Of a stretch of 64,000 bases of DNA, positions 3,807 through 21,483 are shown one piece after another. A model generated the notes under the pieces. The model was not told the DNA's origin, did not search any database, and saw nothing but the letters and a program-made list of their open reading frames with translations. Origin of the DNA: Candidatus Saccharimonadales bacterium (GTDB lineage Bacteria > Patescibacteriota > Saccharimonadia > Saccharimonadales > UBA4665); the NCBI GenBank assembly GCA_036388415.1, contig DASVRW010000002.1:186001-250000 (forward strand), read 5' to 3'. The position numbers were made by a program, and so were the translations under genes. Position 1 is the stretch's first letter; each line of letters begins with the position of its first letter.

Positions 3807-4796
3807 TTAAATTAATCCACGATTCACAAGATTCCAGTAGTGTTGGCCAAGTACGGTAAGTTCGCAGGACTTACTTTCCATTGCTGCATTCCACATGTGT
3901 GGTGTTCCTACTGGACGGAGTAGATTAACTTTAATATATCTTTGCAAAATAGCAAATATAGCTGTATTAGTTGAATTTGGAACGGGTACATTAGCTTTTG
4001 CGTCATCTGAAGAACGTACCGGTTCAAACGTCGGATCAAGAGCAAATTCAAAATCAGCTGTTGGAAAATGTGTAGTTATCGCTTGCAAATCGGTTAATGC
4101 GATTGGAGGCTCTGCAGTACGCAGAGAAACAAAAGTCTTAACATTTGTTTTAAATACCGGGCGTTGAGCCCATGTACCTAATGATTGATCAACGTGTGCG
4201 TAAATGCTTCCCGGCGTTACATCGCCAAGAAGGTTTCCTGCAGCCCCATTTAGAGCATCGACAAACAAATTAGTAAAAACACCAGATCCTCCACCTGGAG
4301 TTTCCATGGCGTATTGGTCGGCTGTCGATGCTGACAAAATCGTAACACCATCTTTTATTTCAGCAAGACCAGTAACTAACGCATTGTTACCGGCAATGCC
4401 TCCATGGCAACTATCAAGTATAATTACCTTATTTCGCGCTGGAGATTGATTTGCTAGTGTCATTACTTCACTTAGTGCCAATCCATCATCACCGGATCGA
4501 TCGTCACTAGCACAAAGGTAGCCGCCTACATCTTCTATGTATCCATGACCGGCAAAATAAAATAAAGCAATTTCACTATCGTCTGCAAAAAGTTCTCGCA
4601 CCGCATCTTTAAGCTGCTCTCGGCTGATGGCGCTTCCGGCATCATTGCCGGTTAGGAGCTGAGGAGTAGCGAAGTTCAATGTCCCATCGGAGTGTCGTTC
4701 TAGTATGGCTTTTACGGCATGAGCATCGTTTACGCACCCACTCAGGTTACCTATTCTCTCATAAAAATCGATGCCTACAATTAAAGCCTTACGCAT
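3807..4796 (-). CDS. Caspase-like (C14) protease with C-terminal sensor-like domain
   Basis: Of 329 residues, the N-terminal 200 or so form a caspase/metacaspase domain: [10 protein letters not shown] at 3-12, catalytic histidine H84 in YFAGHGY and catalytic cysteine C130 in ILDSCHGG. The last ~110 residues are a separate domain with FALDPTFEP near 250 and a compact C-terminal block rich in Trp, Tyr and Leu. The ATG overlaps the stop of the TIR gene by one base (TAATG), so the two are made together. Known biology: in type IV Thoeris, a TIR enzyme makes a cyclic ADP-ribose-type signal that activates a caspase-like protease. The pair here has that composition; the C-terminal domain as ligand sensor is inference. 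Confidence 0.8.
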
Positions 4797-5173
4797 TATA
4801 GAGAATCAATGAAATTACTAATGTTTGCATCAGACCATGTATACGTGGTTACTCCGCTGATTGTTGTCCGATCTGCGCTGTATGCCCAGATTCCTCGCAC
4901 AGGCGTGCTCTCCTCTTTTGCACATTCGATTTCCCATTTTTGACCTTCGGATGTAAGAGAGTTTTTACTTACTAGGACAATAACACCGTCGGATCGACGG
5001 ATTCTCGTACGAACACGTTCCTTCCATTCTTTATCGTATGCTTGCTTTACGGACATATCGATAAATTCGAATGGTTGCCTGGGATGTAGCGATTGACCCT
5101 TTAAAAAGTCACGCTGATGCTCATCTTCAATTGCAAAAGCTACAAATATAATTTTCTTATCATTGTCAGACAT
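4796..5173 (-). CDS. TIR-like (ThsB-type) signalling protein
   Basis: A 125-residue single domain starts with [13 protein letters not shown] at 6-18, the beta-strand A and early loop of TIR-like (DUF1863/ThsB) proteins. A central [14 protein letters not shown] strand is at 62-75 and W80-E81-I82-E83 supplies the expected glutamate on the following helix. Stand-alone TIRs of this length are the infection-sensing NADase of Thoeris systems. It is first in a two-gene operon with the caspase-like effector, with a strong AAGGGGG ribosome site. Conservation of the Glu suggests an active enzyme. Residual doubt is between type IV Thoeris and a relative. Confidence 0.8.
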
Positions 5174-5280
5174 ATTACCCCCTTTTTTTCATAAGTCGGC
5201 GTTAGATACGCTGCTTGTTACTATTATACGCTGCAACTTGTCAACAGCCCAATGCACATGGTCAAATATTCTTATTTGAG

Positions 5281-5562
5281 CTATTGTACAGCTCGACGAA
5301 TTGCTTCGGTGAACGGCGTGTCTTGTTCTTGTACGTCCGGCTCCAGTTCATCGTATGGTTTGATTGATCGATGCTCAGGGTCATTAAAACTCATCCATGC
5401 GGCCCAGACGTTGTGAACGTCTTCGTTGGTAACTTGCGTATGCTTCGCAAGCGCCAAGACGGCGTACATAAGCATTAGCTCGTCAAGGTTTTCGGCTTCT
5501 GGTAAAACTTCGGCTGGGATTTGGCCATGAATTTCACCGGCTAGTTCTTTTATGTAGTTCAT
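5281..5562 (-). CDS. Small acidic conserved hypothetical protein
   Basis: The 93-residue helical acidic protein has no transmembrane segment. Recognisable patches are LMLMYAVLALAKHTQVT, EDVHNVWAAWM and a C-terminal PFTEAIRRAV. I recall small actinobacterial proteins with this layout (a DUF7701-like domain) but cannot confirm the family. A TACTAT -10 box lies 6 nt before the ATG, indicating a leaderless transcript. It lies between the TIR-caspase operon and the phage-like island, transcribed separately. Confidence 0.6.
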   Translation of the reverse strand: MNYIKELAGEIHGQIPAEVLPEAENLDELMLMYAVLALAKHTQVTNEDVHNVWAAWMSFNDPEHRSIKPYDELEPDVQEQDTPFTEAIRRAVQ

Positions 5563-5616
5563 GACTTAATAGTAGCACTTTAGCTTGGTATAATAATAAT
5601 TAAGATAGGGGTAAAC

Positions 5617-6357
5617 GTGAGCAACGGGAGAACAGTTTCAATCCAAGTTTCGACGGCGCAGCAATTCCATGTTGCTGCCGAAGCTCGCCGTGCTGCCCAA
5701 AAAACGATTGAAGCGTCTTTACCGGCTGAGAAGCTAGCCCTAATTGCTGAAGCCCAGCAACGCCAGGTGGCGGCAATAATGCCACGAATTAGTTCAATAA
5801 CTGTACCAATATTCAAAGAGTTCCGTCGAACAATGCTGTTTCACGGTGCGGCTTTTCGCTCGGTCTCAATGCCCTATACTCAGCTGAACCAGTCGATTAC
5901 GGCTTGGCAAAAAGTACTAAGCAGCTCGCTTATTACAGGCTTCCAACAATCAACATTTGGCTCGATACCGTTTGTTATCAACTTTGAAACGCCAGATATC
6001 CTTATGCCGCGCCAACTTGAACAAGCTGTTATTGCGGATGAGTCATTACAATTACCAGACAGTACAAATCTTACTGTTTCAATCGACCAATATGGCAACT
6101 TTGTTATTAATCAGCATACAATGTACCGTGCAAACGCAAATACTTCCGAACACGGCAAGCTACTGCACTTACTTGAGAGCCGTAAAGACGAGTTTATTAA
6201 AAATGACGAACTAAGAGCGCATTTTAAGGCTGGCAGCGTACGCGAAATTATGAAGAATCTTAAAAAGGATATGCGTGAATCAGGCTATCGGTTAGATTAT
6301 GACCGGCACCGTCGCCAAGGTTTGGTGTACCACGGCATTATTCACCGCCAACAGTAG
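5617..6357 (+). CDS. Hypothetical protein with C-terminal winged-helix-like domain
   Basis: This starts at GTG with an AGGGG ribosome site 5-9 nt upstream. Of 246 residues, the N-terminus is an Ala/Gln-rich helix, the middle is not recognised, and the last ~75 residues (HGKLLHLLESRKDEFIKNDE onward) look like a winged helix with a positively charged recognition helix and a final beta wing. A DNA-binding role is inference. It is the first plus-strand gene of the island and is closed by a terminator at 6384. Confidence 0.55.
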   Translation: MSNGRTVSIQVSTAQQFHVAAEARRAAQKTIEASLPAEKLALIAEAQQRQVAAIMPRISSITVPIFKEFRRTMLFHGAAFRSVSMPYTQLNQSITAWQKVLSSSLITGFQQSTFGSIPFVINFETPDILMPRQLEQAVIADESLQLPDSTNLTVSIDQYGNFVINQHTMYRANANTSEHGKLLHLLESRKDEFIKNDELRAHFKAGSVREIMKNLKKDMRESGYRLDYDRHRRQGLVYHGIIHRQQ

Positions 6358-6383
6358 TCTACCCTCATAATACCCCTATATTC

Positions 6384-6408
6384 CCCCGTTTCATAAGCGG
6401 GGTTTTTT
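6384..6408 (+). terminator. Rho-independent terminator
   Basis: CCCCG and CGGGG pair around a short A/T-rich loop (the stem can extend by TT/AG pairs) and are followed by six T. It separates the gene at 5617 from the methylase operon. Confidence 0.8.
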
Positions 6409-6440
6409 GTTATTCCTAAGACATAACGAAAGGAAAAGTT

Positions 6441-7709
6441 ATGTCGGAAACATTGGAAATCAAACAAGTCGGCGTGTCATTGTTAAATCCCGCACCGTAT
6501 AACCCAAGAAAATGGAGCGAACATTCGATCCGTCAATTGACTGAAAGCATTAAGCGCTTTGGAATGGTCGATCCGATTATCGCCAATAGCGCTACTATCC
6601 GCAAGAACATTGTTATTGGCGGCCACTTCAGACTCAAAGTTGCCAAAGACCTCGGCTATACCCTGGTACCGGTGGTTTATGTTGATATTCCGGATGAGAA
6701 TCGTGAAAAAGAATTGAACCTACGACTTAACCGTAATACCGGTGAGTTCGATCTTGAGCTTTTAAAGCAATTTGATGTCGACCTTTTGCTCGACGTTGGC
6801 TTTGATGATAGCGACCTCGGCGACATTTGGAATGATGCGTTGGAAACCGATGACGATAGCTTTAATCAGGAAAAAGCCGTCAAGCAAGCTGAAGGCACTG
6901 ATATCAAACTCGGTGACATGTTTCGACTTGGCAGCCACCGGCTAATATGCGGCGACTCGACTGATCCGACCGTTATTACTAAGCTAGTAAGCACTGATCG
7001 CCCCGCTATTTTTTATAGTGATCCGGTCTACAATATCAAACTTGATTATAGCAAAGGTATTAACACCGGCGGCAAATATGGTGGTTCAGCCAAAGACCAT
7101 AAATCAGATAATGAGTATAAACAATTTCTGCAGGCTGCGCTGACGGCCGCGATGCCAGTCTTGGCCGAAGACGTCCATGTATTTATGTACTGCGACCAGA
7201 ACTACATTGGCTTACTGCAATCACTTATGCAGGAAAATAATCTTAAGAACCGGCGCGTCTGCCTATGGATCAAGAACAGCTTCAACATGGTGCCAAAGGT
7301 AGCTTTTAATAAGGCCTACGAACCCTGCGTTTATGCGACTCGTGGTAATCCGTATCTATCGGATACCAGTAAAAACCTGACAGAGATTATTAATAAAGAC
7401 ATATCACCCGGTAACCGGACTATCGATGATATTACGGATCTATTTGACATCTGGCTGGCTAAACGTGAATCAGCACAGGAGTACCAGCACCCAACGCAGA
7501 AACCGGTAACCTTGCATGAAAAGCCGCTCAAACGCTGCACGAAAGTCGGCGATATGGTGCTTGATGTTTTTGGCGGCTCAGGTTCAACGTTGATTGCCTG
7601 CGAGCAAATGAAGCGTGTGGCCCTACTTAGTGAAATCGATCCGGTATTTTGCCAGGTCATCGTTGACCGTTGGCAAGCGCTAACTGGCAAAAAGGTAGTA
7701 CAGCTATGA
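6441..7709 (+). CDS. ParB-domain DNA methyltransferase, motif IV altered
   Basis: The protein (422 residues) joins two domains. Residues 8-135 are a ParB/Srx-like domain (NPAPYNPRKWS, then GGHFRLKVAKDLG), and residues 155-422 are an N6-adenine/N4-cytosine methylase of the beta order, with motif IV at 194-197 and motif I DVFGGSGST near 375-383. Motif IV reads DPVY instead of DPPY, which may weaken catalysis. This architecture is typical of phages and integrative elements. It overlaps the next methylase by 4 nt (ATGA), so all four genes to 10372 form one tightly coupled operon. Role: modification of element DNA. Confidence 0.85.
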   Translation: MSETLEIKQVGVSLLNPAPYNPRKWSEHSIRQLTESIKRFGMVDPIIANSATIRKNIVIGGHFRLKVAKDLGYTLVPVVYVDIPDENREKELNLRLNRNTGEFDLELLKQFDVDLLLDVGFDDSDLGDIWNDALETDDDSFNQEKAVKQAEGTDIKLGDMFRLGSHRLICGDSTDPTVITKLVSTDRPAIFYSDPVYNIKLDYSKGINTGGKYGGSAKDHKSDNEYKQFLQAALTAAMPVLAEDVHVFMYCDQNYIGLLQSLMQENNLKNRRVCLWIKNSFNMVPKVAFNKAYEPCVYATRGNPYLSDTSKNLTEIINKDISPGNRTIDDITDLFDIWLAKRESAQEYQHPTQKPVTLHEKPLKRCTKVGDMVLDVFGGSGSTLIACEQMKRVALLSEIDPVFCQVIVDRWQALTGKKVVQL

Positions 7710-8446
7710 AATCCGGTGACATATACCGGCTTGGCAGCCACCGCTTAGCCTATGGCAGTTCTAGTGACACGGACCTACTTGCCCGGCTTGTAAGCGCAGA
7801 TAAAGTAGCCATGGTCCTAACTGACCCGCCCTACGGCGTCTCATATGTTGAAAGCAAACGCGGTATTGCTAGTTTGGCGACCGATAAGGTTATCGCTAAT
7901 GACAATATCGGAGACGAAACGGAATACAAGGCGTTCAGCGTGGCATGGATCGAGGCGGTTAAGCCGCACCTGGCCCGCAAGAATAGTATCTATATCTTTA
8001 ATTCGGACAAAATGCTGGTGCCGACTGTTGAAGCTATGAAGTCTACCGGCTGTAAGTTTGCTCAACTTCTTATCTGGGCTAAAACTCATGCGGTGGTTGG
8101 CCGCTTGGATTACTTGCCTCAGCACGAGCTAATTCTGTATGGCTGGTATGGCACCCATACTTTTAAAAAGAGCAAAGATAAAAGTATTCTGGTCTATCCC
8201 CGGCCGAATCGGAGCAAACTGCATCCGACTATGAAGCCAGTCGGTTTATTACGGCGGCTTCTACTTAATAGCTCGAGCGTCCGAGATATTGTCTTTGACG
8301 GCTTTGCCGGGAGTGGCAGTACTCTATTAGCTTGTGAACAGACTAACCGCCAATGCTTGGCAGTCGAGCTTGACCCGGAGTACTGCCAAGTAATCATTGA
8401 CCGTTGGGAAAGACTGACTGGCCAAACAGCGGAGCTGCTAATATGA
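7706..8446 (+). CDS. DNA modification methylase (N4/N6 type)
   Basis: A longer frame exists, but the ATG at 7706 overlaps the previous stop (ATGA), giving 246 residues. It begins SGDIYRLGSHRLAYG, the same lead-in as the preceding enzyme's catalytic domain, has intact motif IV DPPYG at 40-44 and motif I FAGSGSTLLACEQ near 207-219, and ends with the common VIIDRWERLTG helix. It is a beta-class methylase without its own ParB domain. The similarity to its neighbour suggests duplication with division of labour, the intact copy probably supplying catalysis. Confidence 0.88.
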   Translation: MKSGDIYRLGSHRLAYGSSSDTDLLARLVSADKVAMVLTDPPYGVSYVESKRGIASLATDKVIANDNIGDETEYKAFSVAWIEAVKPHLARKNSIYIFNSDKMLVPTVEAMKSTGCKFAQLLIWAKTHAVVGRLDYLPQHELILYGWYGTHTFKKSKDKSILVYPRPNRSKLHPTMKPVGLLRRLLLNSSSVRDIVFDGFAGSGSTLLACEQTNRQCLAVELDPEYCQVIIDRWERLTGQTAELLI

Positions 8447-8856
8447 GCCGCAACCAGAAAGCCGATAAGAAGCAACTACTGTTACGCCTTGAAAAGACAC
8501 CGATTGTAGAGGTGGCCTGCCAACAGGCCAAAGTCCCCCGCAGTACCTATTACCGCTGGCGTAAGGCAGATAAAGCATTTGCCGAAGCCTGCGATGAGGC
8601 GCTTGAGGAAAGTATTGGCCGAATCAATGATCTAGCTGAATCGCAGCTCATCAGTGCGATTAAGGAGCAGAATATGGGGGCTATAACATTTTGGCTAAAA
8701 CACCACCACAAACGCTATACTACCCGCGTCGAGCTAACGGCCCGGACTGACCAGGATGAAGCCTTAACGCCAGAACAAGCGGCTACGGTTCGGGCTGCCC
8801 TGCAGCTGGCTGGACTTCTAAGTAATGAAGTAAGCCTGAAAGATATCAATGAATAA
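8443..8856 (+). CDS. Phage terminase small subunit-like protein
   Basis: From the ATG at 8443 (ATGA overlap with the methylase) it has 137 residues. Residues 18-40 form a helix-turn-helix with PRSTYYRWRKADKAF, the form found in phBC6A51-type terminase small subunits and insertion-element HTH proteins. A helical middle and an acidic C-terminus follow. Its position immediately before the large terminase, overlapping it by 8 nt, makes TerS the best call. It would recognise the packaging site and hand DNA to TerL. Confidence 0.78.
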   Translation: MSRNQKADKKQLLLRLEKTPIVEVACQQAKVPRSTYYRWRKADKAFAEACDEALEESIGRINDLAESQLISAIKEQNMGAITFWLKHHHKRYTTRVELTARTDQDEALTPEQAATVRAALQLAGLLSNEVSLKDINE

Positions 8857-10372
8857 TCAACTACCGGCTGAACTATGGCAACATATTCAGTCTGACCGTA
8901 AGGTGCGAATGAAGACCGCCGAGCAAAGCCATGAATGGTTTTTTAGCTTATATCTGGCGGACTATGTATCGTATCCGACTGCGCCGTTTCAACAGGAGAT
9001 ATTCAATTTAACAGAGCGCACGGACATCAACCATATAGTGATCGTTGCTTTTCGTGGCTCCGGTAAGTCGACAATGGTTACCTTGTCATATCCAATTTGG
9101 TCCATCCTTGGAGTGCAGCAAAAGAAGTTTGTATTAATACTAAGCCAAACTCAAAACCAAGCTCGTATGCACTTGGCGAATATTAAACGAGAGTTTGAAA
9201 ATAATGAGCTACTACGTGCGGATTTTGGCCCGCTTGAAGAAGAAAGCGATGAATGGGGATCATCTTCGCTTGTCTTAAGCCAATATGGCGCCCGTATTAG
9301 TGCCGCATCAACCGATCAGAGTATCCGCGGTATTCGGCATGGTAAACACCGCCCTGACCTTATTATATGCGATGACGTTGAAGATCTATTATCCGTGAAG
9401 ACTTATGAAAATCGTAATAAGAACCATAATTGGTTGACCGGTGAAGTCATACCTGCCGGAGACAACAATACTAAGCTTGTTATGGTCGGCAACCTATTAC
9501 ACGAAGATTCCCTCCTCATGCGCGTCAAAGCCCGGTTTGAAGCCGGTGACATGGATGGCGTCTTTAAAGCGTACCCGCTTGTCTCTGATGATGGTCAAGT
9601 GCTATGGACTGGTAAATATCCAGATATTGCCGCCGTCGAAGCCGCCCGACGAAAGCTTGGTAATGACCGCGCTTGGCTTCGTGAATATATGCTCAAGATA
9701 ATACCCGATGAGGATCAGATTATATTACCGCAATGGATTAAATACTATGATAATCTGCCGTCTAAGGATTTTAATACACTTCGTTACAAGGCGGTTGGCA
9801 TTGACCTGGCCATATCCCAGCGCACTACCGCCGACTGTACAGCCATGTTATCTGCTGAGATACATGGTCTCGGCGAAAATATGAAAGTGTATATTCTGCC
9901 GGATCCGGTCAACGCCCATATGTCCCATTTAAAAACGCTCGAAAAGGCTCACGAGCTAGTTGCTAAGCTTGGTACAAAAAGCAGCGTGAAGTTGTTTGTT
10001 GAGGAAGTTGGTTACCAGGGATCGGTTATTGAACAATTAACAAAAGAGAATTATAAGGCCGAAGGCGTAAAGGTACGCGGCCAAGACAAGCGAGCGCGAT
10101 TGTTATCGATCAGTCATCTGGTTGAAAGCGGCAAAGTTGTCTTCCCTCGATACGGTGGCCACCAACTTCTCCAGCAGCTATTAGGTTTTGGTAGCGAACG
10201 ATATGACGATTTGGCAGATGCATTCTCGATATTACTCGAGAAGGTATTGGAGCATGATCACAGGCCTTCAGGAGGAACAGTCACATGGGGCACGGGTTTT
10301 TGGGATAATTATTGGAAGCACCGAAATGCTTTTGAAAGTAGCCGCTGGGAGGGACGAAGACATGGCTGGTGA
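8849..10372 (+). CDS. Phage terminase large subunit
   Basis: This 507-residue protein carries both TerL activities. The ATPase has Walker A AFRGSGKST at 67-75 and Walker B LIICDDVED at 171-179. The RNase H-like nuclease has VGIDLAIS near 316-323 and the final acidic motif YDDLADAFS near 465-475. TerL cuts concatemeric DNA and drives it into a capsid. No portal, capsid, protease or tail gene follows; the operon ends here and a structured non-coding region begins. Length and motif spacing are normal, so the gene looks functional. Confidence 0.93.
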   Translation: MNNQLPAELWQHIQSDRKVRMKTAEQSHEWFFSLYLADYVSYPTAPFQQEIFNLTERTDINHIVIVAFRGSGKSTMVTLSYPIWSILGVQQKKFVLILSQTQNQARMHLANIKREFENNELLRADFGPLEEESDEWGSSSLVLSQYGARISAASTDQSIRGIRHGKHRPDLIICDDVEDLLSVKTYENRNKNHNWLTGEVIPAGDNNTKLVMVGNLLHEDSLLMRVKARFEAGDMDGVFKAYPLVSDDGQVLWTGKYPDIAAVEAARRKLGNDRAWLREYMLKIIPDEDQIILPQWIKYYDNLPSKDFNTLRYKAVGIDLAISQRTTADCTAMLSAEIHGLGENMKVYILPDPVNAHMSHLKTLEKAHELVAKLGTKSSVKLFVEEVGYQGSVIEQLTKENYKAEGVKVRGQDKRARLLSISHLVESGKVVFPRYGGHQLLQQLLGFGSERYDDLADAFSILLEKVLEHDHRPSGGTVTWGTGFWDNYWKHRNAFESSRWEGRRHGW

Positions 10373-10413
10373 TATGGATAGGCTTGACAGCGTATAGCAG
10401 GTATAATCAATAT

Positions 10414-10523
10414 TGTCTAGATCAGAGTAATTCAGTATTGCGCGAGCAGCCTCGCGTGGTGATGCCATAAAAATGGGCAGCCATGCGAAAAAGTAGGCAT
10501 CACTGCTTGCTCTGATCTAGACA
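10414..10523 (+). ncRNA. Structured non-coding element, three-way-junction-like
   Basis: Perfect 14-bp arms (10414-10427 and 10510-10523) enclose two further hairpins: CGCGAG/CTCGCG at 10441-10456, and GTGATGCC/GGCATCAC at 10459-10503 with an inner ATGG/CCAT. The whole could fold as a closed multi-branch RNA or extruded DNA. A TATAAT sits just upstream (10402-10407) with a TTGACA only 12 nt before it, so the promoter is uncertain. A segment inside (about 10468-10483) is also complementary over 16 positions to 10532-10547, giving an alternative fold. Function is unknown; strand is assumed from the flanking genes. Confidence 0.6.
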
Positions 10524-10557
10524 GTCTAGTGTGGCTGTCCATTTTTATATATCGGGC

Positions 10558-10592
10558 AGCCTCCAGCGCTCACAATAACTTAAACGGAGGCT
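10558..10592 (+). promoter_or_regulatory. Hairpin sequestering the ribosome site of the DUF4352 gene
   Basis: AGCCTCC (10558-10564) is perfectly complementary to GGAGGCT (10586-10592), which contains the Shine-Dalgarno sequence 8 nt before the ATG at 10599. When paired the start would be masked. Together with the switchable helix upstream this resembles a translational control leader. Confidence 0.6.
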
Positions 10593-10598
10593 AATCCC

Positions 10599-11174
10599 AT
10601 GGATAGCACAAAAAAGCGAAACTTTTTCGCACGACATAAAATATTAACCGGGTTCCTAGTTCTTGTCGGGCTAGGAGTGATTATTTCTGCGGCTGGTAGT
10701 GGCGGATCAAACACCCAAACGGCTTCGAATAGTGGATCAAGTAACGCAGCTCAAACAGACGACAAAGCAAAGGTAGCAAAACTAAATGAAACAGCCCGAG
10801 ACGGCAAATTTGAATTCACCGTTACCAGCATCGAATGCGGCAAAGCGTCAGTCGGTACCAATGAGTACTTAACGAAGCAGGCGCAAGGTCAATTCTGCCT
10901 GGCTAATGTTAGCGTCAAGAATGTCGGCACCGAAGCCCAAACGTTTGATAGCTCAAGTCAGTATCTTTATGATGCAGCCGGGTCCAAGTTTTCCGCCGAT
11001 GGCACTGCATCACTATATGCTAACCCTGAGGGCAGTACCTTCCTAAATCAGATCAATCCAGGTAATAGCGTTACAGGTGCAATTGCCTTCGACTTGCCAA
11101 AAGACAAAACGCCGGTCACGGCAGAGCTACACGACAGTGCCTTCTCGGGTGGTGTAAAAGTCAGCTTACAATAG
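10599..11174 (+). CDS. DUF4352 membrane-anchored surface protein
   Basis: The protein (191 residues) has a basic start, a transmembrane anchor at about 15-33 (LTGFLVLVGLGVIISAAG), a Gly/Ser/Asn/Thr/Gln linker to about 60, and an immunoglobulin-like DUF4352 domain with the typical FTVTSIECG, FCLANVSVKNVG and IAFDLPKD strands. Such proteins sit on the cell surface; binding partners are unknown. Within this island it may be a lysogeny or superinfection-type cargo gene, but that is inference. It has its own structured leader and terminator, so it is regulated apart from the terminase operon. Confidence 0.8.
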   Translation: MDSTKKRNFFARHKILTGFLVLVGLGVIISAAGSGGSNTQTASNSGSSNAAQTDDKAKVAKLNETARDGKFEFTVTSIECGKASVGTNEYLTKQAQGQFCLANVSVKNVGTEAQTFDSSSQYLYDAAGSKFSADGTASLYANPEGSTFLNQINPGNSVTGAIAFDLPKDKTPVTAELHDSAFSGGVKVSLQ

Positions 11175-11191
11175 AAGCACGAAAATCATAA

Positions 11192-11220
11192 AATAGTCGT
11201 CTTCATGGCGACTATTTTTA
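11192..11220 (+). terminator. Rho-independent terminator
   Basis: AATAGTCG and CGACTATT form an 8-bp stem with a 9-nt loop, and the stem runs into TTTTTA. It closes the DUF4352 gene. Confidence 0.8.
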
Positions 11221-11262
11221 TTATGCTGGACTTGTTGAAACACTTGCGGCATTACTTGTGTT

Positions 11263-12534
11263 ATGAACACAGAACCCGAACTTAAATACTGCTTGTATGC
11301 TCGCAAGTCCAGTGAATCAGATGAGCGCCAAGCTATGAGTATAGATTCTCAGTTAGCTGAAATGAGAGCCTTGGCTAGCAGTAGTGGACTCAATGTAGTA
11401 TGCGAATTGCAAGAAAGTTACTCGGCCAAAGAGTCGGGTAAGCGGCCAGTTTATAATCAATTGCTTAAAGGGTTACGGGGTGACGAGTATAATGCTGTGC
11501 TTACATGGGCACCCGATCGTCTATCTAGAAATGCCGGTGATCTCGGCTCTATAGTAGATCTAATGGACCAGGGTAAATTGTTGCATATTAAGACGTACTC
11601 ACAAACATTTACTAATAATCCAAATGAGAAGTTCTTGCTTATGATCCTTTGTTCGCAGGCAAAGCTTGAGAATGACAACAAAAGCATCAACGTCAAACGA
11701 GGTATTAAAACGAAGTGTGAAATGGGCTGGCGGCCAGGGGTCGCACCGCTCGGCTACATGAATCGGGCATTCGGTGGTATCAAGGACATCGTTCCTGACC
11801 CTGACCGAGCCGATATCATTACTGAAATGTTCCGTAAGGCTGGCCAGGAGGGCTGGAGCGGCCGGAAACTGAAAGACTGGCTTGACGGCCAGGACTTCCG
11901 CAACCGATCTGGCTTGCCGGTCATGTTGAGCCAGGTTCTTGCCATCCTCATTAACCCTTTCTATTATGGCGAATTCCAGTATCCAGAGTCGCCTGGCGGC
12001 AAATGGTTCAAGGGCGCGCATAAACCGCTTGTTTCTAAAGAATTGTTCGACCTCGTACAGCAAACGCGCGGTGTAAACAAAGGCGTGTGGGGATCGAAGC
12101 AGTTTGCTTTCCGCGGCTTAATATCATGTGGCCAATGTGGTGCAAGCTTTACGGCGCAGGAAAAGTTTAAAAAGCTGAAAAACGGAGACTATAACCGTCA
12201 CGTTTACTATAGTTGCACTCGACGCGTTGATCCTAACTGCAAGGAAAAATATATCAACGAAACAAACTTCTGCCTGATACTCCAAGACTTTATTGAGCAG
12301 AATTACAACGGAATACGTATCAGCAGTAAGTTAAGGGCTAAAGTCGAACGACACTACAGTGCTACCAAAAGTTTGTTTGCTCATTACAAACTTGAGCAGC
12401 CCCTCGACAAGCCGTTCATCGAATATTCGAGATATGTACTGGACTGTGGATCAGAAAGCGAAAAAACGGCTCTGGCAGCTGGAATTGAAACAAAACTTAA
12501 GCTCACTTTTGGAGCTCTCGCTTTTGTAAAGTAA
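11263..12534 (+). CDS. Large serine recombinase (integrase)
   Basis: The protein has 423 residues. The N-terminal resolvase domain starts CLYARKSSESDERQAMS with the catalytic serine at about 16-17, and the arginine motif DRLSRNAGD lies near 85-93. A recombinase domain follows (PGVAPLGYMN, then ILINPFYYGEF), then a zinc ribbon with CGQCGASF near 290 and YYSCTR...C near 317-325, and a helical end. These enzymes integrate and excise phages and mobile islands at short attP/attB sites. It sits at the right edge of the phage-like island, next to where an attachment site is expected; I could not identify att sites by eye. Confidence 0.92.
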   Translation: MNTEPELKYCLYARKSSESDERQAMSIDSQLAEMRALASSSGLNVVCELQESYSAKESGKRPVYNQLLKGLRGDEYNAVLTWAPDRLSRNAGDLGSIVDLMDQGKLLHIKTYSQTFTNNPNEKFLLMILCSQAKLENDNKSINVKRGIKTKCEMGWRPGVAPLGYMNRAFGGIKDIVPDPDRADIITEMFRKAGQEGWSGRKLKDWLDGQDFRNRSGLPVMLSQVLAILINPFYYGEFQYPESPGGKWFKGAHKPLVSKELFDLVQQTRGVNKGVWGSKQFAFRGLISCGQCGASFTAQEKFKKLKNGDYNRHVYYSCTRRVDPNCKEKYINETNFCLILQDFIEQNYNGIRISSKLRAKVERHYSATKSLFAHYKLEQPLDKPFIEYSRYVLDCGSESEKTALAAGIETKLKLTFGALAFVK

Positions 12535-12582
12535 GATTCAGCGATATACCAACGATAAATCCAAAATGAATTTTATTTCAAT

Positions 12583-12966
12583 TTACTTTTCAGGCTCACT
12601 TTTCATATTTTGAAATACTTTCCATCCTTCTTCCGTTCCATCTTCAATGTCCTCTTCGTGTCCAAAGTAGAGTGAAGACGCTTGAATAGTTTCTTTACCG
12701 TATTCTTCAAATTGTTCAGTTTTCCAATTAATAGGCGTTTCAGAATCGATAACTTCAAAAACTTCTGATGGCATCCACCAAGGCAATTCGCTGTCGTCAG
12801 TAACGATAAAGTAGAATTTACCCAAGTCATTGATACGAACACCATAACTTGTATACTCTTTATCAATCGTGATTTCAAGATTACCGTTTTGGTCCTGCGT
12901 AAATGCGAACTTTCTCAATTTAACACTTAGATCATTTATGTTATTTTTGATACACTTCAGTTTCAT
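12583..12966 (-). CDS. Candidate immunity protein for the RHS toxin
   Basis: The 127-residue acidic cytosolic protein has no known motif that I can name; WWMPSEVFEVID near 58-69 is distinctive. Its ATG overlaps the RHS stop codon by 4 nt (ATGA), the classic toxin-immunity order in polymorphic toxin loci, and its acidity fits the strongly basic toxin tip it would have to bind. Function is assigned from position only. Low similarity to neighbours is expected since toxin-immunity ends are exchanged between strains. Confidence 0.6.
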   Translation of the reverse strand: MKLKCIKNNINDLSVKLRKFAFTQDQNGNLEITIDKEYTSYGVRINDLGKFYFIVTDDSELPWWMPSEVFEVIDSETPINWKTEQFEEYGKETIQASSLYFGHEEDIEDGTEEGWKVFQNMKSEPEK

Positions 12967-15900
12967 CGATATCTCTTTATCTTCACCTGTTTTACAGCTT
13001 TCTTAGACGAGTTGTAGAAGTAATGTACTATAACTTTCTTACCCTTATTTGTCAAAGGAACATGCCTGTACTCCATTTTTCGCCACCCATCTTTGGCTGA
13101 GTATCTAGCATCTTTAATTTTTCCTTTCATTATCTCTATGCCTACTTTTGGATTTGCACGAACAGTCTGCATAGCTAGCTTTTCACTAAGATTTCTAGCC
13201 GCTACTGTAGCAGCTTTCTTGGCTACATGTTTTGCGGCGTACTGAACTGCTATTCTCCCCGCAAATATCGCTACTGGTATTAAGAAAGCTGCTTGTCCGT
13301 CTAGATCTTCTTTGTTGATTGGATCAGCTGGGTAAATGTATCGATTTTCTACCCCGCCCTCTATTGGATCGACCTGTAAAAAGCGACCAAGGCTTGCAAT
13401 ATAGATCCTGGCACCCATTTCCTGAGGCTTAAGAGTAAAGTCTTTTTCAGTTTGCTTTTGATGCTTACCGACCCAGCCATAGCTATTGCCAGCGGTAGTG
13501 TTGTCTGCAGCAGTCGAGGACAACAATTGACCGAATGGATCATATTGATATGATCCGGTACTTGTACCATTAGTATTTGTTGTTGCCATGACGTCACCAT
13601 GTATATTCGGTAGACTGTAGGTGTCTTTTTTAGCAGCATCGGTTTCAGTTGGTCGGATAGTAAGTAGAACGCCACCAGGAAGTGCCTGGTACTTCTCAAC
13701 GACCGTCCAGCTAGTATTACGGATGAAGTCAGCGGTATCGCCAGTTCCAGTGTAGCCAGAAAAGGTTTGTTTTTGATTTAATCCATAATTGTCTTGACTG
13801 CGGTATTTAATGCGGTTTTGCGCATCGCGACTGAAGAAGGCTTCGACGCCTCCATTATTCTCAATTATCGCGCTATTGCGATCGCTTGAATCGTAACGGA
13901 ATTCTGTTCTGGTCGTGCCACTGCCAAGGAAACGGGTATTGCCATGGGCGTCGTACTCGGCATTTGTTACAGTAGGATCTGTCGAACTCACAAGCTGATC
14001 GGCATTGTTGTAGCAGTAGTTAGTTGTAGTGGTCGTACCACCATTAGTACGGGTCGCGCTTGTTCGGTTAGCGTTTTTCCCGGCGTTTGCGTTGTCGCCA
14101 ACGGCGCAACCGGTAGCGGTACCAAAGCCATAAGTGAACTGCTGCCCTGCAACCGTTGCACTTACTAATCTACTGGCTTTGTCATAGCTATAGCTTTTCG
14201 CTTGGCCTAGCTCTGTCCCGGAGATTATCTGACCAGACTGCGAACGAGTTACCGAATCGCTGACTTGAGATGTGCTGTCGCCAAGAGTGTAAGTAACATT
14301 GTTACTACGTCCAAGTTGGTCGTAACCGATACTGACAGCGGATGATCCGGCAGTCGGATATGTTGCGCTGTTCAAGCGGCCAAAGGCGTCGTAGCCAGCA
14401 TAAGATAGTACTACTGAATCGAGTTTCTGCTCTGTCAAGCGATTAAAATTATTGTAAACGTATTCTTCAAGACCAACCGGGCTGGTTTTAGAGGTGAGTC
14501 GGCCAATTGCATCGTAAACATATTGTGTAGTATTTACGTACGAGTCTGAGTAGGTAACGGTTCGACCTAGCAAATCAAATGTCGTTTGTATAGTGCCCTC
14601 AGGATCACTCGTGTTTGTAATCAGTGGGTTTCCGCCTACTGCCCAGCTATTAGTAACTGTTCTGGCTGATGCACCATTGATGGCTGGTATCTGCACCTGT
14701 GTGACGCGGCCACGATCATCATAGGTTGTACATGTCCACGGGTCAGTGTTATAGCGGATAGCTACAACCCGACCTGCGTCATCGTAGACTGTTTCAGTAG
14801 TGCGAGCAGCTCCGGCTCCGGCAAGACCCGGCTCAGTCTTAAGCTTAAGCATGCCGCCTTGCTTAAATACTTCAGTAGCAGGTGTGCACGGGTTATCAGC
14901 TGTTTCAGTCGCACCAAAGTAGCCGTAACTTGTGTTGGTGCCGCCAGGCAGTGTCTTGCCAATCATGCGCATTAAGCTCCCAGTTGCGCCTTGTGCTTCG
15001 TAGCTAGAGGAGGTGTTATAGTTAAGCCCGCCCGGATCAACAATACTACTTTGAGCGAGGCCCAACTCTGGACTGGCGCCGTAATTGGTATTTGTCTGTG
15101 TGTCACCGACTTGAGTGCTAGAATCGAAATTCTTTTGAGAAGTTGTTAAGCCGTATCGGGGTGTCAGCAGTGATCCTAATGCAGCTGTTTCGGATCCTCC
15201 CGGCGAAGTTTTGTAAAGAATGAGTTGAGCATCGTTTTCGGTTGTATTCTTATTGTAATACTCAACTCGGATAGGGTGATAGCTGTTAGCAACGGTGTTA
15301 TTAATCGTAACGTTCATATTCATAGCGTGAGAGCGTTGGCCGCCGTCTTCCCAGTCATTGATGATAAGCTTGTCATCAACGTATAAACGGACACCGTCGT
15401 CGCTATGTACCCTGAACGTATGTACGCCTACTTCATTGAGCTTGACATCACCACTTAAGCGTACGCCCCAGCCAGTATTGCCGTTGCCAGTATCGACCGG
15501 TGTCGGTACGGTTGAACCCCACGTCCGGTTGATATCACCGTTCGAGCCGCCAATACCTGTCTGATGGTTCTTAGGTGCTCCGCTCAATGTTTTAGTGCTG
15601 GATTTGTAGTTATAGTATGTAGCAGCAAGACTATTAATGCCTTCATCATAGCCACTTTGATTACGCGGTACTTGTGATACATAAGCAGCTAATGGCTTTC
15701 TATCTGCTCCAAACCAAGCGGACGGTGCTGCGCCGTATCTATCAGTCAACCGATCAGCATAATCATAGATATGCATTGTTTTAAGACCGACTGGGTCGGT
15801 GGTAGACAGGATCATGTCTTTAACTGGATCCCACTCGGTCGTAGTCATCAAGTTTGCTAAATCAGTATCTTGCAAGGTCCTGAAGGTACTGTCGTATTCA

Positions 15901-18900
15901 ACCTTACGGTTAAAGCCGACTGGTTCCGTGGCACCATCAACTTTTACGAATGAGTATCCGGCACTTGCTACGCCACTCTGAGGATCAACGCTGTTGTATT
16001 GATAGGAATGAGCTTGCCTGGTAGCTCCCGGTGTTGCCTCAGGATATTTGACTTTTGTAGCCCGACCAATCAAATCGTAGCTTATGGTCGTATTAAGCAA
16101 ATCACTTTGAGTTCTTACTCCAGCAGATACTGCATCGTTTGCTAGTGCGGTTCGCATCTGCGTAAGTAGCCCAGTTCCAGCTGAATCATAGCCAAATGAT
16201 TGTATCTCATTGCCAGGCTCAACAATTCGTGCGAGTTGCGGCTTACCAGTAGGATCGTTCTGATAGACAAATTGAGTTACACGGTTATCGGAGGTCTTTA
16301 AGGCACATACCATATTTGTCGGTACGGCATCGAAACCTGATGGCACAGCTGGACAAGCCGATTCACCAGCGTAGATCAATTGTGCAAAACGCGAAGTGTC
16401 CACAGAATCGCTTAACTTCAATAGATGGGTGATGTTAGGGTTAGCAGATCCGGGGCTTGTACCGTAATCATAGTTTATGACGGCTGCTTTGCGGCTATCG
16501 ACTGGATTAGTGACCGAGCGAATAGTACCATCGGAGTTAAAGACGTAGGTTTTTCCATCCGAATCCTGCAAAGTTAAGCTGCCATCGGCGTTACGAGTCA
16601 ATATGCCTTCTTCATTTGGCGGAGCAACATAAGCATTGTTAACGTATTTGTATTCATGAGTTTCTCCAGTTGCGTCACGTAAGACTACGCTGCTGTTATT
16701 AATTGCAGCAAATTCGTAAGTTAAGTCACCATCTTCATCTGCACTTAGCTTCCAACCGTCCGGTAAGGCCGGTACTTCTTGTGTAAGCATTTCGGCTGGT
16801 ACCACCCGTTCAGCTCCCGATGAATCTATCATATGTAGCTCTGCGGTAGCACCACCGGCGTTTTCATAGTACTCGACAGTAATTGGATATGACTGACCGG
16901 CGTTTAATTGAACGGTGTTTGATTGTGTCGTAATGCCAGGGTTATCAGCCCAGTTATTGAGTATCGGCGTAGTCGAATTATTAAGGAATACCCGACTGCC
17001 GTCATCAGCTACTGTCTTAAATTTGTAGTTATCGGTGACTTGAGGAGTGATATAGCCGCTCCAGCGAACCATGAAGTCGTCTGAAGGCGCACCTGGAATT
17101 GGACTACCGCCTCCCCAGTGGAATGATACCTGACTGTCATTACGTGTTAAGAAAAGTCGGTCATTAGCATTTGCAGGAAAGCTTGGTGAGGGGCCATTAT
17201 TGTCGCTGTAGTAATACCGTCCTGTTAATCCGTACTTGTCACTCACCTGCTTTACGCCGGTTTGAAGCCAGTTACTTAGCACGACCCGTTCACCATTTGG
17301 ATTAGATTGTGCATTGGCAAACTGAGGACCCTTTACATACAATTTCATTCTTGCACCTTGCTCCCAGTCAAAGTACTCAATCTTTATAGGAATAATTTGT
17401 CCGGCAGTCAGCTGTACTGAATCTGTACCGAATCTCAATGTCGGTGAACTATAACCCCAGCTGTCCAGTTTCGCGGTCGTTTCATTATTCACAAATATAC
17501 GAACGCCATCATCAGCATCAGCACCAAACTTATATGTTCCATCTAGCGGAGCGACAAAGTAACCTTGCCAACGAGCTAAGAAATGATCATTGCTAATCGT
17601 GCCCGGTTGCGGCGATCCGCCCAACCAATCAGAGTCCACAGCACCGTCAACACGAGTTACGGCCGGTGCGGTGCTTGGGAAGCAGGCACAGTTGGCCGCA
17701 TCATTCCAATACTGGGCAGTCAGCCCATTACGTGAGCGTACTGGGGAATTGTATTCTAGTCCTAAGCCTAGTGAGCCCCCTAATGCACTAACAGAATGAG
17801 TGTTATTAGAAGTAGTTACATTGCCAGTTGCCAAATCAGTTGAAACCCCTTCAACAGTGTCGAAGGCTTGCGTAGCGTCTTTGCCATTGCGCATATCAAC
17901 CCTAAACGACCGCACTTCGCTGTCTTTCCAAGAACCTAGCCGACCAGTTGCAGGATTGCCAGCATCTACTTGATCCCACGTTTGCACTTTCCAGTAATAA
18001 GTTGTTCCGTCTTTCAATGCGTTATCCGGTACCGTCCACTGCGGTGAATCGAGCCAATCAGACGATACGACCATACCACTATTTCCATCATTGCCAGTCG
18101 TAACGCGGAAGCGATACTTAACCGCTTGTCCGTCAGGATCGGTCGCGTAGCCACTTGTTAGAAACGGTTGTACATTAACGACCGTTGCTTTATCTGCCGG
18201 AGCAGTTAAAGCACTAGCAGCTGGAAGATTGTCATAAGTAAAAGTGACACGGGTGTCTTCATAATCAAAAGTCTTAAATGTATAGTTATCACTTTCATCA
18301 CCATTAACCATCATCCAGAAGCCGAAATCGCCGCCTGCAATCGCTTTACGGTAGAGCTCAGTCACGTCCATGTCACCTTGGTAACCGATGTTAGCACTGG
18401 CCGTACCATAGCTTCCGTCAATACCATGGTAATTGAATGCACCTAAGTGGCGTGCGTAGAACATACGTCCGTCGTATGTACCTTTAGTAGATATGGAGGA
18501 ATCATTTGGCTCAACCATTTGAAGGTGCAGAGAGGCATTTAATAAGTACTTATTAGGATCTTGTAACTGATCAAAATTAGCGTGCGTAGCAAACCGCCAG
18601 ATATAGTACGGTCTGTTGTTACCAGCGCTGTTGCTGCAGCCCATACCTGGATTGCATACGTAGCCATCGTGGCGGTAGTTCACATAATTGAAGCCATTGT
18701 TTGATACAAAGCTTGGGTCGACAATTACCGGAAATGATTTCTTATCTAATTTTGAAAACCAATCTTTGTCTACATCGACGGTTATTTCATTGTTGCTAAT
18801 TGTCTGTTTAACATATGGTTCGGATCCGACAATACCCTGGTCGGCAAGGCCAACAGTAGGTGGTGCTATATTAAGGTCAGCCATTTCACCGTCCAATTTA

Positions 18901-19754
18901 TAATAGCCAGGTTGATCAGGATTTGGACTTAAGCTTGCGCCATCTAATTTAAATTTGAAGTTGGTTTGACTTTCCGGCTTACTAATAACGATGCTTTCTT
19001 TTAGCTCGGAGGCATTAACTTCATACTTTACGTCTACCCCAGGCCAAACATTCTTGTAAGTAACAATTTGGTCAGAGCCGCTGTCACTTACTTCAGGCTC
19101 GCTATCTTTGCCGCCTATTGGAGTTAACTTTGCAGTTTGATTGCCCTGCTTTACATTAACGCCCTCAGTTTCAGTTAATTTCTTAAAAGTTACCTGCCAC
19201 TTGTTGGCTTTTGTTTTCCACTCGTTCTTTGACTTGTCTTTTTCGAGAGTCATATCAATGTCTTGCCACTTGCCGTCTTTTTGATAACTTGTCGGTAAAA
19301 CACTTTGCTCGACGGTTTTGCTGCCATCTTTATTAAGGAAGGTCTTTTGAGTTGGACTGCGATCTTCGTCGAGTACTTTAACTTTTGTAAGATCCCGTGG
19401 TTTACCGTTTTGAAGTACCTTACGGGTCTCGCTCAACTCGTTCTTCATTTTATCGGGAAGTTTAGAGACTTTCTTAGCGTCGCCCAGATCGACCGGGACG
19501 GCACCTGAAGCGACATTGTTCAAGGCTTGAGGCGTTCGGGCTTGCTTCTGCTGATAATCATAAAGAAATGAACCTAACCCAACTGTAAGGCTTGAAAAAG
19601 TAAAAACGGTTGCAACTGTTACTGCGGAAAAGCGCATATTAAAGTCTTTGATTTTACGCTCATTAAGCTTGTATTTTTTGTGTAATAAAAAAAGCGCCGT
19701 CAATTTTAACGGCGCTTTTGCAATTGCTTTGAATTTTTGGCCAAAACCTCTCAT
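12963..19754 (-). CDS. Giant WapA/RHS-like surface polymorphic toxin with three PA14 domains
   Basis: This 2263-residue protein has a basic N-terminus and a membrane anchor or signal at about 42-65. A WapA-like region to about 520 includes a DNRLRE-type module. PA14 carbohydrate-binding domains lie at about 671-818, 838-988 and 1371-1525. RHS/YD repeats lie between and after them, and the core closes at about 2125-2150 with DPIEGG and IYPADPIN. The last ~110 residues are a basic, distinct tip (GWRKMEYRH, VIVHYFYN) that should be the toxin; its fold is not recognised, an RNase is plausible. Family knowledge: RHS shells encapsulate and deliver such tips by contact. The start could instead be the ATG at 19631, because a terminator-like hairpin lies within the first codons. 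Confidence 0.88.
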   Translation of the reverse strand: MRGFGQKFKAIAKAPLKLTALFLLHKKYKLNERKIKDFNMRFSAVTVATVFTFSSLTVGLGSFLYDYQQKQARTPQALNNVASGAVPVDLGDAKKVSKLPDKMKNELSETRKVLQNGKPRDLTKVKVLDEDRSPTQKTFLNKDGSKTVEQSVLPTSYQKDGKWQDIDMTLEKDKSKNEWKTKANKWQVTFKKLTETEGVNVKQGNQTAKLTPIGGKDSEPEVSDSGSDQIVTYKNVWPGVDVKYEVNASELKESIVISKPESQTNFKFKLDGASLSPNPDQPGYYKLDGEMADLNIAPPTVGLADQGIVGSEPYVKQTISNNEITVDVDKDWFSKLDKKSFPVIVDPSFVSNNGFNYVNYRHDGYVCNPGMGCSNSAGNNRPYYIWRFATHANFDQLQDPNKYLLNASLHLQMVEPNDSSISTKGTYDGRMFYARHLGAFNYHGIDGSYGTASANIGYQGDMDVTELYRKAIAGGDFGFWMMVNGDESDNYTFKTFDYEDTRVTFTYDNLPAASALTAPADKATVVNVQPFLTSGYATDPDGQAVKYRFRVTTGNDGNSGMVVSSDWLDSPQWTVPDNALKDGTTYYWKVQTWDQVDAGNPATGRLGSWKDSEVRSFRVDMRNGKDATQAFDTVEGVSTDLATGNVTTSNNTHSVSALGGSLGLGLEYNSPVRSRNGLTAQYWNDAANCACFPSTAPAVTRVDGAVDSDWLGGSPQPGTISNDHFLARWQGYFVAPLDGTYKFGADADDGVRIFVNNETTAKLDSWGYSSPTLRFGTDSVQLTAGQIIPIKIEYFDWEQGARMKLYVKGPQFANAQSNPNGERVVLSNWLQTGVKQVSDKYGLTGRYYYSDNNGPSPSFPANANDRLFLTRNDSQVSFHWGGGSPIPGAPSDDFMVRWSGYITPQVTDNYKFKTVADDGSRVFLNNSTTPILNNWADNPGITTQSNTVQLNAGQSYPITVEYYENAGGATAELHMIDSSGAERVVPAEMLTQEVPALPDGWKLSADEDGDLTYEFAAINNSSVVLRDATGETHEYKYVNNAYVAPPNEEGILTRNADGSLTLQDSDGKTYVFNSDGTIRSVTNPVDSRKAAVINYDYGTSPGSANPNITHLLKLSDSVDTSRFAQLIYAGESACPAVPSGFDAVPTNMVCALKTSDNRVTQFVYQNDPTGKPQLARIVEPGNEIQSFGYDSAGTGLLTQMRTALANDAVSAGVRTQSDLLNTTISYDLIGRATKVKYPEATPGATRQAHSYQYNSVDPQSGVASAGYSFVKVDGATEPVGFNRKVEYDSTFRTLQDTDLANLMTTTEWDPVKDMILSTTDPVGLKTMHIYDYADRLTDRYGAAPSAWFGADRKPLAAYVSQVPRNQSGYDEGINSLAATYYNYKSSTKTLSGAPKNHQTGIGGSNGDINRTWGSTVPTPVDTGNGNTGWGVRLSGDVKLNEVGVHTFRVHSDDGVRLYVDDKLIINDWEDGGQRSHAMNMNVTINNTVANSYHPIRVEYYNKNTTENDAQLILYKTSPGGSETAALGSLLTPRYGLTTSQKNFDSSTQVGDTQTNTNYGASPELGLAQSSIVDPGGLNYNTSSSYEAQGATGSLMRMIGKTLPGGTNTSYGYFGATETADNPCTPATEVFKQGGMLKLKTEPGLAGAGAARTTETVYDDAGRVVAIRYNTDPWTCTTYDDRGRVTQVQIPAINGASARTVTNSWAVGGNPLITNTSDPEGTIQTTFDLLGRTVTYSDSYVNTTQYVYDAIGRLTSKTSPVGLEEYVYNNFNRLTEQKLDSVVLSYAGYDAFGRLNSATYPTAGSSAVSIGYDQLGRSNNVTYTLGDSTSQVSDSVTRSQSGQIISGTELGQAKSYSYDKASRLVSATVAGQQFTYGFGTATGCAVGDNANAGKNANRTSATRTNGGTTTTTNYCYNNADQLVSSTDPTVTNAEYDAHGNTRFLGSGTTRTEFRYDSSDRNSAIIENNGGVEAFFSRDAQNRIKYRSQDNYGLNQKQTFSGYTGTGDTADFIRNTSWTVVEKYQALPGGVLLTIRPTETDAAKKDTYSLPNIHGDVMATTNTNGTSTGSYQYDPFGQLLSSTAADNTTAGNSYGWVGKHQKQTEKDFTLKPQEMGARIYIASLGRFLQVDPIEGGVENRYIYPADPINKEDLDGQAAFLIPVAIFAGRIAVQYAAKHVAKKAATVAARNLSEKLAMQTVRANPKVGIEIMKGKIKDARYSAKDGWRKMEYRHVPLTNKGKKVIVHYFYNSSKKAVKQVKIKRYR
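19685..19718 (-). terminator. Terminator-like hairpin inside the 5' end of the RHS frame
   Basis: On the minus strand AAAGCGCCGT and ACGGCGCTTT form a 10-bp stem with an 8-nt loop followed by seven T, a textbook intrinsic terminator. It lies about 12-23 codons after the first ATG of the RHS gene, so it either attenuates that gene or shows that translation begins downstream at 19631. Confidence 0.65.
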
Positions 19755-20226: not shown

Positions 20227-20795
20227 CATATTATCCACTATTTTCATAGCGGCATGGACTATCTCATCATCCTTATTGCTAAGGATGCAGGGCGCTTATG
20301 AAGGATTATTGCTTAAGGTCTCACCTTCTAGTCTCTGAACCTTCCAAGCGTTGAATGTAATATTCAGTGCCTCTAGCTTGGCTTGGCTGCGGATCAGCAT
20401 ATCCCGTATAGGACGTAGCTTTCCCGACAATTCACCCTGTTTTCACTGCATGATTACTCATACAGGCTGCACTTCGACGATACCGGCATGCACTTCTCGG
20501 TGACAATTAGCGCAAATAAGGACGCATTTATCTGCTTCTTCGACAACTTTATTCCAGGCACGCGTTAATCCGCCTGATGACACACCGAATAATTTCTGAT
20601 TCGGATCAATATGATGAAGGTCAAGAGCATCGATACATTTATTGTAACCGCACAGCATACATTCCCCGCCTTTATACTCGACTAGCTTCTTGCGAACTGC
20701 CCTGCGGCGTTTCGTAACAGCTTTTTTGAGATATTCTGCGCGGTGAATGTATAATCGGCGTTCTGGCATACTTCTATAAGTATACCGTATTTCGT
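20227..20795 (-). ncRNA. Group I self-splicing intron in the tRNA-Asn anticodon loop
   Basis: This 569-nt intron has the classic core elements in order on the minus strand: P/Q (AATTGTCGGGAAAGC at 20418-20433), the GCAGCCAAG segment (20382-20390), R (GTTCAGAGACTAGA at 20327-20340) and S (GAGATAGTCC at 20256-20265). GACTA of R pairs with TAGTC of S as P7. The 5' exon ends in U and the intron ends in G, as required. A GCAGT at 20445-20449 can pair with the exon end GCUGU with a U-G wobble at the splice site, so the ORF would lie in the P1 loop. Core type resembles the tRNA introns of subgroup IC. Confidence 0.9.
20458..20769 (-). CDS. Intron-encoded HNH homing endonuclease
   Basis: The 103-residue protein lies entirely inside the intron, starting 26 nt after the 5' splice site. 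A basic N-terminus (KRRRAVRKKLVEYKG) precedes an HNH core: zinc cysteines C37 and C40 in CMLCGYNKC, the catalytic region LDLHHIDP at 49-56, and CVLICANCHREVHAG near 81-95 with two more cysteines. Such enzymes cut intronless alleles so that the intron is copied in. The small size fits a minimal HNH nuclease. Expression requires transcription through the tRNA gene, as no obvious separate promoter is seen. Confidence 0.88.
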   Translation of the reverse strand: MPERRLYIHRAEYLKKAVTKRRRAVRKKLVEYKGGECMLCGYNKCIDALDLHHIDPNQKLFGVSSGGLTRAWNKVVEEADKCVLICANCHREVHAGIVEVQPV

Positions 20796-21412: not shown

Positions 21413-21421
21413 GATCACTCT

Positions 21422-21475
21422 ATTGTAGCGAACTATCCGTACTATTGACAAAAGTATTGACAAAAGTGATATAAT
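21422..21475. promoter_or_regulatory. Divergent promoter region with tandem 12-bp repeat
   Basis: Minus strand: TTGTCA and TACAAT (21422-21427) serve smpB. Plus strand: TTGACA (21445-21450) and TATAAT (21470-21475) serve the hydrolase at 21484. Two adjacent direct copies of ATTGACAAAAGT (21444-21467) overlap the plus -35 and could be an operator. Confidence 0.65.
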
Positions 21476-21483
21476 GTATTGAT

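Follow-up and report, generated by a model that had tools for sequence, protein, structure and literature searches.

A family of structured RNA leaders with competing helices around a transcription terminator precedes mobile-element cargo genes in the Patescibacteria

The region preceding a DUF4352 gene in Candidatus Saccharimonadales contig DASVRW010000002.1 belongs to an RNA family of the Patescibacteria, a group of ultra-small bacteria, that appears not to have been described before. The stretch analysed (64,000 nt, contig positions 186,001 to 250,000) is referred to here as the window, and coordinates are window positions on the forward strand unless marked (-). The leader is approximately 130 bases long and has competing folds around a transcription stop signal, and 84 members were collected from Saccharibacteria and other Patescibacteria classes. 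It probably acts in cis from its own promoter, with conditional termination controlling transcription of the cargo gene, and read-through would be regulated by alternative helices in a riboswitch-like manner.

Architecture of the leader

The element proper spans approximately 10402-10548, and a Shine-Dalgarno hairpin follows 3' of it. The predicted folding energy of 10380-10640 was -94.1 kcal/mol, versus -65.8 ± 4.6 kcal/mol in 200 dinucleotide shuffles (z = -6.1; none of the 200 as low), and all of the helices named in a preliminary description of a switchable, multi-branched leader are present in the sequence. The opposite strand also folds strongly (z = -4.7), as inverted repeats fold on both strands, and strand and function were therefore judged from relatives.

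A predicted -10 box (TATAAT, 10402-10407) would place the transcription start at approximately 10414-10415, so the RNA is expected to begin at the outer helix, P1. This helix, first noted as a 14-bp pairing, was found as an inverted repeat and borne out by the swap test and pair counts described below; it joins the extreme 5' end of the predicted RNA (10414-10430) to 10507-10523 over 17 nt, with one mismatch and 14 perfect pairs. Between its strands lie a small hairpin visible in the sequence, H (GCGAG-CAGC-CTCGC, 10441-10456), and three strands that share partners: X (CGCGTGGTGATGCC, 10453-10466), which can pair with Y as a hairpin or, via 10459-10466, with Z; Y (ATAAAAATGGGCAGCCATGC, 10467-10486), which can pair with X or C'; and Z (GGCATCAC, 10496-10503), whose partner is X. 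In other members hairpin H differs in sequence yet is self-complementary, and its average stability is low (mean MFE z = -1.1).

The terminal GAC of the P1 3' strand doubles as the start of strand D (GACAGTC, 10520-10526), the 5' arm of a local intrinsic terminator that is likewise supported by the swap test and pair counts. The 3' arm, C' (GTGTGGCTGTCC), occupies 10529-10548 together with the U-tract and is contested by D and Y; the window's terminator hairpin reads GACAGTC-TAGTGT-GGCTGTC (10520-10539) and is followed by ATTTTTAT. A long alternative helix, originally noted as a 16-position pairing with 10532-10547, was found as 17 nt between 10467-10483 and 10532-10548 with one G.U pair, and it crosses other helices, indicating a pseudoknot or an exchange of partners. 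This crossing, the TATAAT box and the local terminator hairpin add to the features of the preliminary description. Just past the U-tract is a copy of Y, C2 (GGGCAGCC, 10554-10561, within a segment extending to 10564), which offers C' a second partner and overlaps the anti-Shine-Dalgarno sequence AGCCTCC (10558-10564). As first described, the latter pairs with the Shine-Dalgarno GGAGGCT (10586-10592) of the cargo gene (10599-11174), which encodes a DUF4352 protein with an N-terminal membrane segment (Pfam PF11611, E = 1e-32; phrog_806, of unknown function). The large serine recombinase (integrase) of the element follows at 11263-12534 (PF00239, PF07508; phrog_95, integrase).

Identification and distribution of the RNA family

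Members were gathered by homology in searches that took in Patescibacteria genomes and viral contigs. When 93 genomes from the same taxonomic family were searched with a blastn-type method, one homologue was returned, from another genus (E = 1.9e-9); it is a solitary copy before a GIY-YIG-like gene and carries compensatory changes. Viral contigs scanned with a sequence pattern yielded three matches representing two distinct sequences, in which the element lies in the order terS, terL, element, DUF4352, with a serine recombinase following where the contig extends far enough; two of four further pattern scans of viral contigs gave no match. With a covariance model built from four sequences (R1) and a cut-off of E ≤ 0.05, copies were identified in 72 of the 392 class genomes, representing 46 of 152 genera (best E = 1e-25). 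These figures probably understate prevalence, since no more than eight candidates were scored in each genome and filters were stricter. A second model built from 72 members (R2) identified copies in other Patescibacteria classes with E-values down to 1.8e-17, the E-values of both models being rough owing to short calibration. The layout was unchanged in distant members, and one member (L058) was without C'. The element was absent from the regions downstream of three related terL loci (L003-L005); an occurrence of TATAATCAATATTG in L005 was rejected as coincidental, falling within a gene-rich stretch of the reverse strand.

At gathering score, Rfam 15 contained no family matching the RNA at the window or at eight other members' loci, known aptamer classes included, and at E-values up to 10 it returned only chance matches for 10200-10800. 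No similar DNA was found in phage and plasmid collections. The RNA was also not found described in open-access full-text papers, preprints and supplementary tables (for example, the 2021 list of Fremin and Bhatt, PMC8040213) being outside the scope of that search. The family is therefore apparently new relative to Rfam 15 and the open-access full-text literature.

Covariation of the competing helices

The helices shared by the family are the outer P1, X:Z, a long Y:C' helix that crosses both, and the terminator D:C' with its U-tract. Several of the pairings are mutually exclusive, as X:Y excludes X:Z and Y:C', while Y:C' excludes D:C'. Across the 33 pairs of P1, X:Z and Y:C', 94% of alignment cells were paired and 24 pairs changed on both sides, giving 339 double-change cells versus 86 ± 8 in shuffles (0 of 500 as high) and only 24-43 when partners were slid by 1-3 columns. 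Changes on both sides were found in all eight X:Z pairs (98% of cells paired) and in 12 of 18 Y:C' pairs, the alignment having been fitted to P1 and X:Z and not to Y:C'. The arms are thus retained in homologues with abundant compensatory changes, the point on which the leader first proposed would have stood or fallen.

The same helices were recovered independently of the alignment by a swap test, in which the pairing energy of each sequence's own strands was compared with that of strands swapped between 46 clusters (70% identity; 2000 permutations). Own strands paired better for P1 (z = -25; 46/46 clusters), X:Z (z = -22.5; 46/46), Y:C' (z = -15.3; 45/46), X:Y (z = -11.3; 40/46) and D:C' (z = -7.5), and in a subset of members for C':C2 (z = -4.4; 31/46), versus z-scores of -2.6 to +3.4 for eight unrelated control strand pairs. 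A further hairpin around Z, W, was weakly supported (z = -4.1) and was excluded from the model. Because several strands share a partner, the test was repeated on parts that belong to a single helix, yielding z = -10.2 for the 5' extension of X with the 3' half of Y, -12.5 for the 3' half of Y with the portion of C' in the D:C' loop, and -5.9 for the D linker with C' (control, -2.8). As parts belonging to one helix also covary, the sequence comparisons indicate that selection acts on each of X:Y, X:Z, Y:C' and D:C' despite their mutual exclusion. The conserved, mutually exclusive pairing thus involves the terminator strand itself, with separate covariation for Y:C' and D:C'. In some members inspection revealed a self-hairpin of Y instead of X:Y. 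One Y:C' pair is nearly invariant as G.U (65 of 69 sequences), which fits the sharing of strands, since the G of Y faces C in X and U in C' while the corresponding position of D is A. This use of G.U pairs favours RNA rather than DNA as the working form.

Promoter, terminator and translation start

The order of parts in members is TATAAT, 6-7 nt, the GUC that opens P1, an optional hairpin, X, Y, Z, the other P1 strand ending in GAC, D, C', the U-tract, 10-50 nt, a Shine-Dalgarno sequence and a start codon. Although the -10 box was not included in the covariance models, TATAAT was matched at five or six of its six positions in 76 of 84 members versus 5% of random positions, lay 6 or 7 nt upstream of the P1 GUC in 81 of the 83 members that match at least four positions, and was preceded two positions upstream by G in 75%, an extended -10 feature. 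At the other end, a local hairpin and U-tract were present at C' in 80 of 84 members, and terminator stems of at least six pairs occurred in 90% versus 31% of shuffles. The element lies in cis, immediately upstream of a start codon. Within the next 60 nt, 54 of 84 members have an in-frame start with a Shine-Dalgarno match of at least five, and 68 of 84 have one with a match of at least four, versus 2.4% and 7.8% of random positions, respectively. The median gap to the start is 36 nt and the minimum 10 nt, and where it is no more than 10-20 nt another promoter would hardly fit. A promoter, a leader, and a G+C-rich hairpin with a U-tract before a gene together form the arrangement of a cis-acting attenuator based on an intrinsic terminator.

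In the window, control may extend to translation, with masking of the Shine-Dalgarno as a second layer. Taken over all members, anti-Shine-Dalgarno pairing was higher than in any of 100 shuffle sets, and it exceeded the 95th percentile individually in 14 of 39 members. The switchable leader of the preliminary description is well supported by covariation and cis position, whereas the masked start applies to the window and a subset of relatives and is an optional layer across the family.

Cargo genes and mobile elements

Genes behind the leader are diverse and include those for DUF4352, GIY-YIG, NucS-like, exo/endonuclease-phosphatase, DUF805, DUF4190-like and bPH_2 proteins, as well as unnamed short proteins. 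The products are mostly membrane-anchored, with a hydrophobic membrane-like stretch in 46 of 54 proteins of at least 100 aa versus 27.5% of 436 other nearby genes. Recurrent behind the leader are also membrane proteins of 51-57 aa ending in PYY(T/S)(I/L)S(P/K)NHYWH(T/A) (L027, L033, L043 and L044).

A serine recombinase gene lay within 6 kb of at least 41 of 71 copies (3% expected), and the distance and orientation of recombinase and terL relative to the element vary. Many copies have no adjacent terL, and many are in elements without phage genes nearby. In L106, from a genome of another Patescibacteria class (G640), the RNA-cargo cassette (5413-7767) lies between terL and the recombinase on the strand opposite terL; here the cassette flips as a unit, and it is therefore autonomous and not part of a terminase operon. 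The family also precedes unrelated cargo, which leaves the lysis-lysogeny control once suggested without support, while the copies lacking terL and the inverted cassette of L106 contradict a packaging or replication site tied to terL. A phi29-type packaging RNA was similarly rejected, as the window terL is a phrog_38 terminase accompanied by a small subunit, many members have no adjoining terL and no Rfam match was found.

In the window, the island at 5617-12534 (+) comprises methyltransferases, terS, terL, the DUF4352 gene and the serine integrase and has the appearance of a phage satellite; neither capsid nor portal genes were seen near it in the first 30 kb of the window, and no simple direct-repeat attachment sites of at least 11 nt were found between 4701-6500 and 12301-13100. 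The gene order is repeated in viral contigs L009 and L010, and L106 likewise has a ParB-methyltransferase, terS, terL and a recombinase. Adjoining the integrase end of the island is a gene for a 2263-aa RHS/PA14-like cell-wall protein (12583-19754 (-)), which, with the small ORF after it, is reminiscent of a polymorphic toxin and, possibly, its immunity gene. Elsewhere in the window, a caspase-like gene (PADLOC caspase, E = 1e-18) overlaps a TIR-like ThsB gene (E = 4e-6) at 3807-5173 (-), a possible defence pair of the Thoeris type in which a caspase would be the effector. A group I intron (20235-20489 (-); Rfam RF00028, 81.9 bits) lies next to an HNH-type ORF (20458-20769), with an SmpB-like ORF (20945-21613) close by, and it may interrupt a tRNA or tmRNA, as ARAGORN detected neither around it.

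Proposed mechanism and alternative explanations

RNA synthesis would begin at P1, and as the strands emerge X would first pair with Y in a local hairpin (in some members Y would fold on itself), after which Z could displace Y from X. With Y occupied, C' would emerge free and pair with D, forming an ordinary terminator that stops the polymerase at the U-tract. Were X instead held by Z with P1 closed, Y would be free to take the first bases of C', using as a toehold the C' bases in the loop of the D:C' hairpin, so that D:C' is blocked and the polymerase enters the cargo gene. In the window, C2 could engage either C' or the Shine-Dalgarno, possibly adding translational control. A small molecule, an element-encoded protein, a polymerase factor or the speed of transcription could throw the switch. 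Predicted folds of growing window transcripts passed from X:Y to X:Z and then to P1 with X:Y, D:C' being partly formed. We infer the direction of the switch, that is, which state reads on: we think that Y would be the antiterminator strand, because it can nucleate on the earlier-emerging C' bases in the D:C' loop. The opposite sign is possible, as a long Y:C' duplex beside the U-tract could itself promote termination, and folding energies do not single out a winning state, nested folding being unable to score the crossing helix.

Like riboswitches and transcription attenuators, the RNA is a 5' leader with a long-range outer helix, alternative pairings, and a terminator and U-tract just before the start codon, and pseudoknots are common in riboswitches. 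Here, however, the contested strand is C', the terminator 3' arm, and not the 5' arm alone. The downstream genes are functionally unrelated, which is unusual for a metabolite riboswitch, an Rfam match is absent and no ligand is known. Phage morons are similar in being autonomous cargo genes beside an integrase, often encoding surface proteins, with an orientation that can flip, but to our knowledge they share no conserved RNA switch. The put antiterminator RNA of phage HK022 also lies near a transcript start and chooses between termination and read-through; it is a two-stem RNA that modifies the polymerase in cis for distant terminators and contains none itself, whereas in the present family the terminator lies within the element.

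A conditional cis-acting leader remains our preferred explanation, and three others were weighed against it. It seems unlikely that the product is a stable small RNA with a trans activity directed at the host, at a superinfecting element or at a partner protein, a leaky terminator letting a little cargo mRNA pass. Such an RNA would account for the presence of its own promoter and terminator, and its 3' U-tract could pair with the A-rich start of Y and so protect the 3' end. Its size and layout resemble those of a C. difficile phage RNA, in which a promoter, a 132-nt RNA and a terminator precede an abiF gene (PMC12373285). ToxIN-type (type III) toxin-antitoxin systems and AbiF-RCd22 share this order of promoter, structured RNA with terminator and then ORF, also in phages, but in the family described here the ORF varies freely, RNA repeats are absent and the helices compete with the terminator. 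Moreover, a Pfam scan found no ToxN- or Abi_2-type protein among ten downstream proteins, whose families differ between members; as these proteins are mutually unrelated, they could not all form cognate pairs with the RNA, and a plain small RNA needs no exclusive helices around its terminator.

The retention by selection of several mutually exclusive helices, unique parts included, is also hard to square with a constitutive structured leader that sets a fixed level of partial termination, protects the mRNA 5' end or insulates against read-through, its alternative pairings being mere folding intermediates. Such a leader would fit with P1 opening at the first base predicted for the RNA, a trait of 5' stabilisers, with the varied cargo and with the lack of a known trigger; we nevertheless give it a rather small chance. 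A DNA-level site in the form of inverted repeats or a cruciform, serving serine integrase recombination, packaging or replication, would account for the frequent nearby recombinase and the adjoining terL of the window, but is highly improbable and was rejected: G.U pairs occur throughout and would be senseless in DNA, the promoter sits at a fixed distance, a Shine-Dalgarno and start codon follow downstream, the spacing and orientation relative to recombinase and terL vary, and terL is missing beside many copies and inverted relative to the cassette in L106.

Beyond conditional termination in cis, the family may, as a tentative proposal that we hold at somewhat less than even odds, constitute a new class of RNA switch on mobile elements across the Patescibacteria. 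Promoter, switch and cargo would then form an exchangeable cassette that places unrelated, mostly surface-exposed cargo under a common signal, a shared ligand or an element-encoded factor being sensed through sequential strand exchange (X:Y, X:Z, Y:C' and D:C').

Implications for Patescibacteria biology

Very little is known of RNA regulation in the Patescibacteria, and the single review found to connect them with riboswitches names the latter only as a possible engineering tool. A widespread family that is linked to mobile elements and has unusually readable competing helices provides a direct experimental handle on the control of surface proteins in these episymbionts and on their mobile elements, and the leader might be put to use for expression in organisms for which few genetic parts exist. 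That unrelated cargo stands behind a common switch also raises the question of which signal is shared by all these elements.
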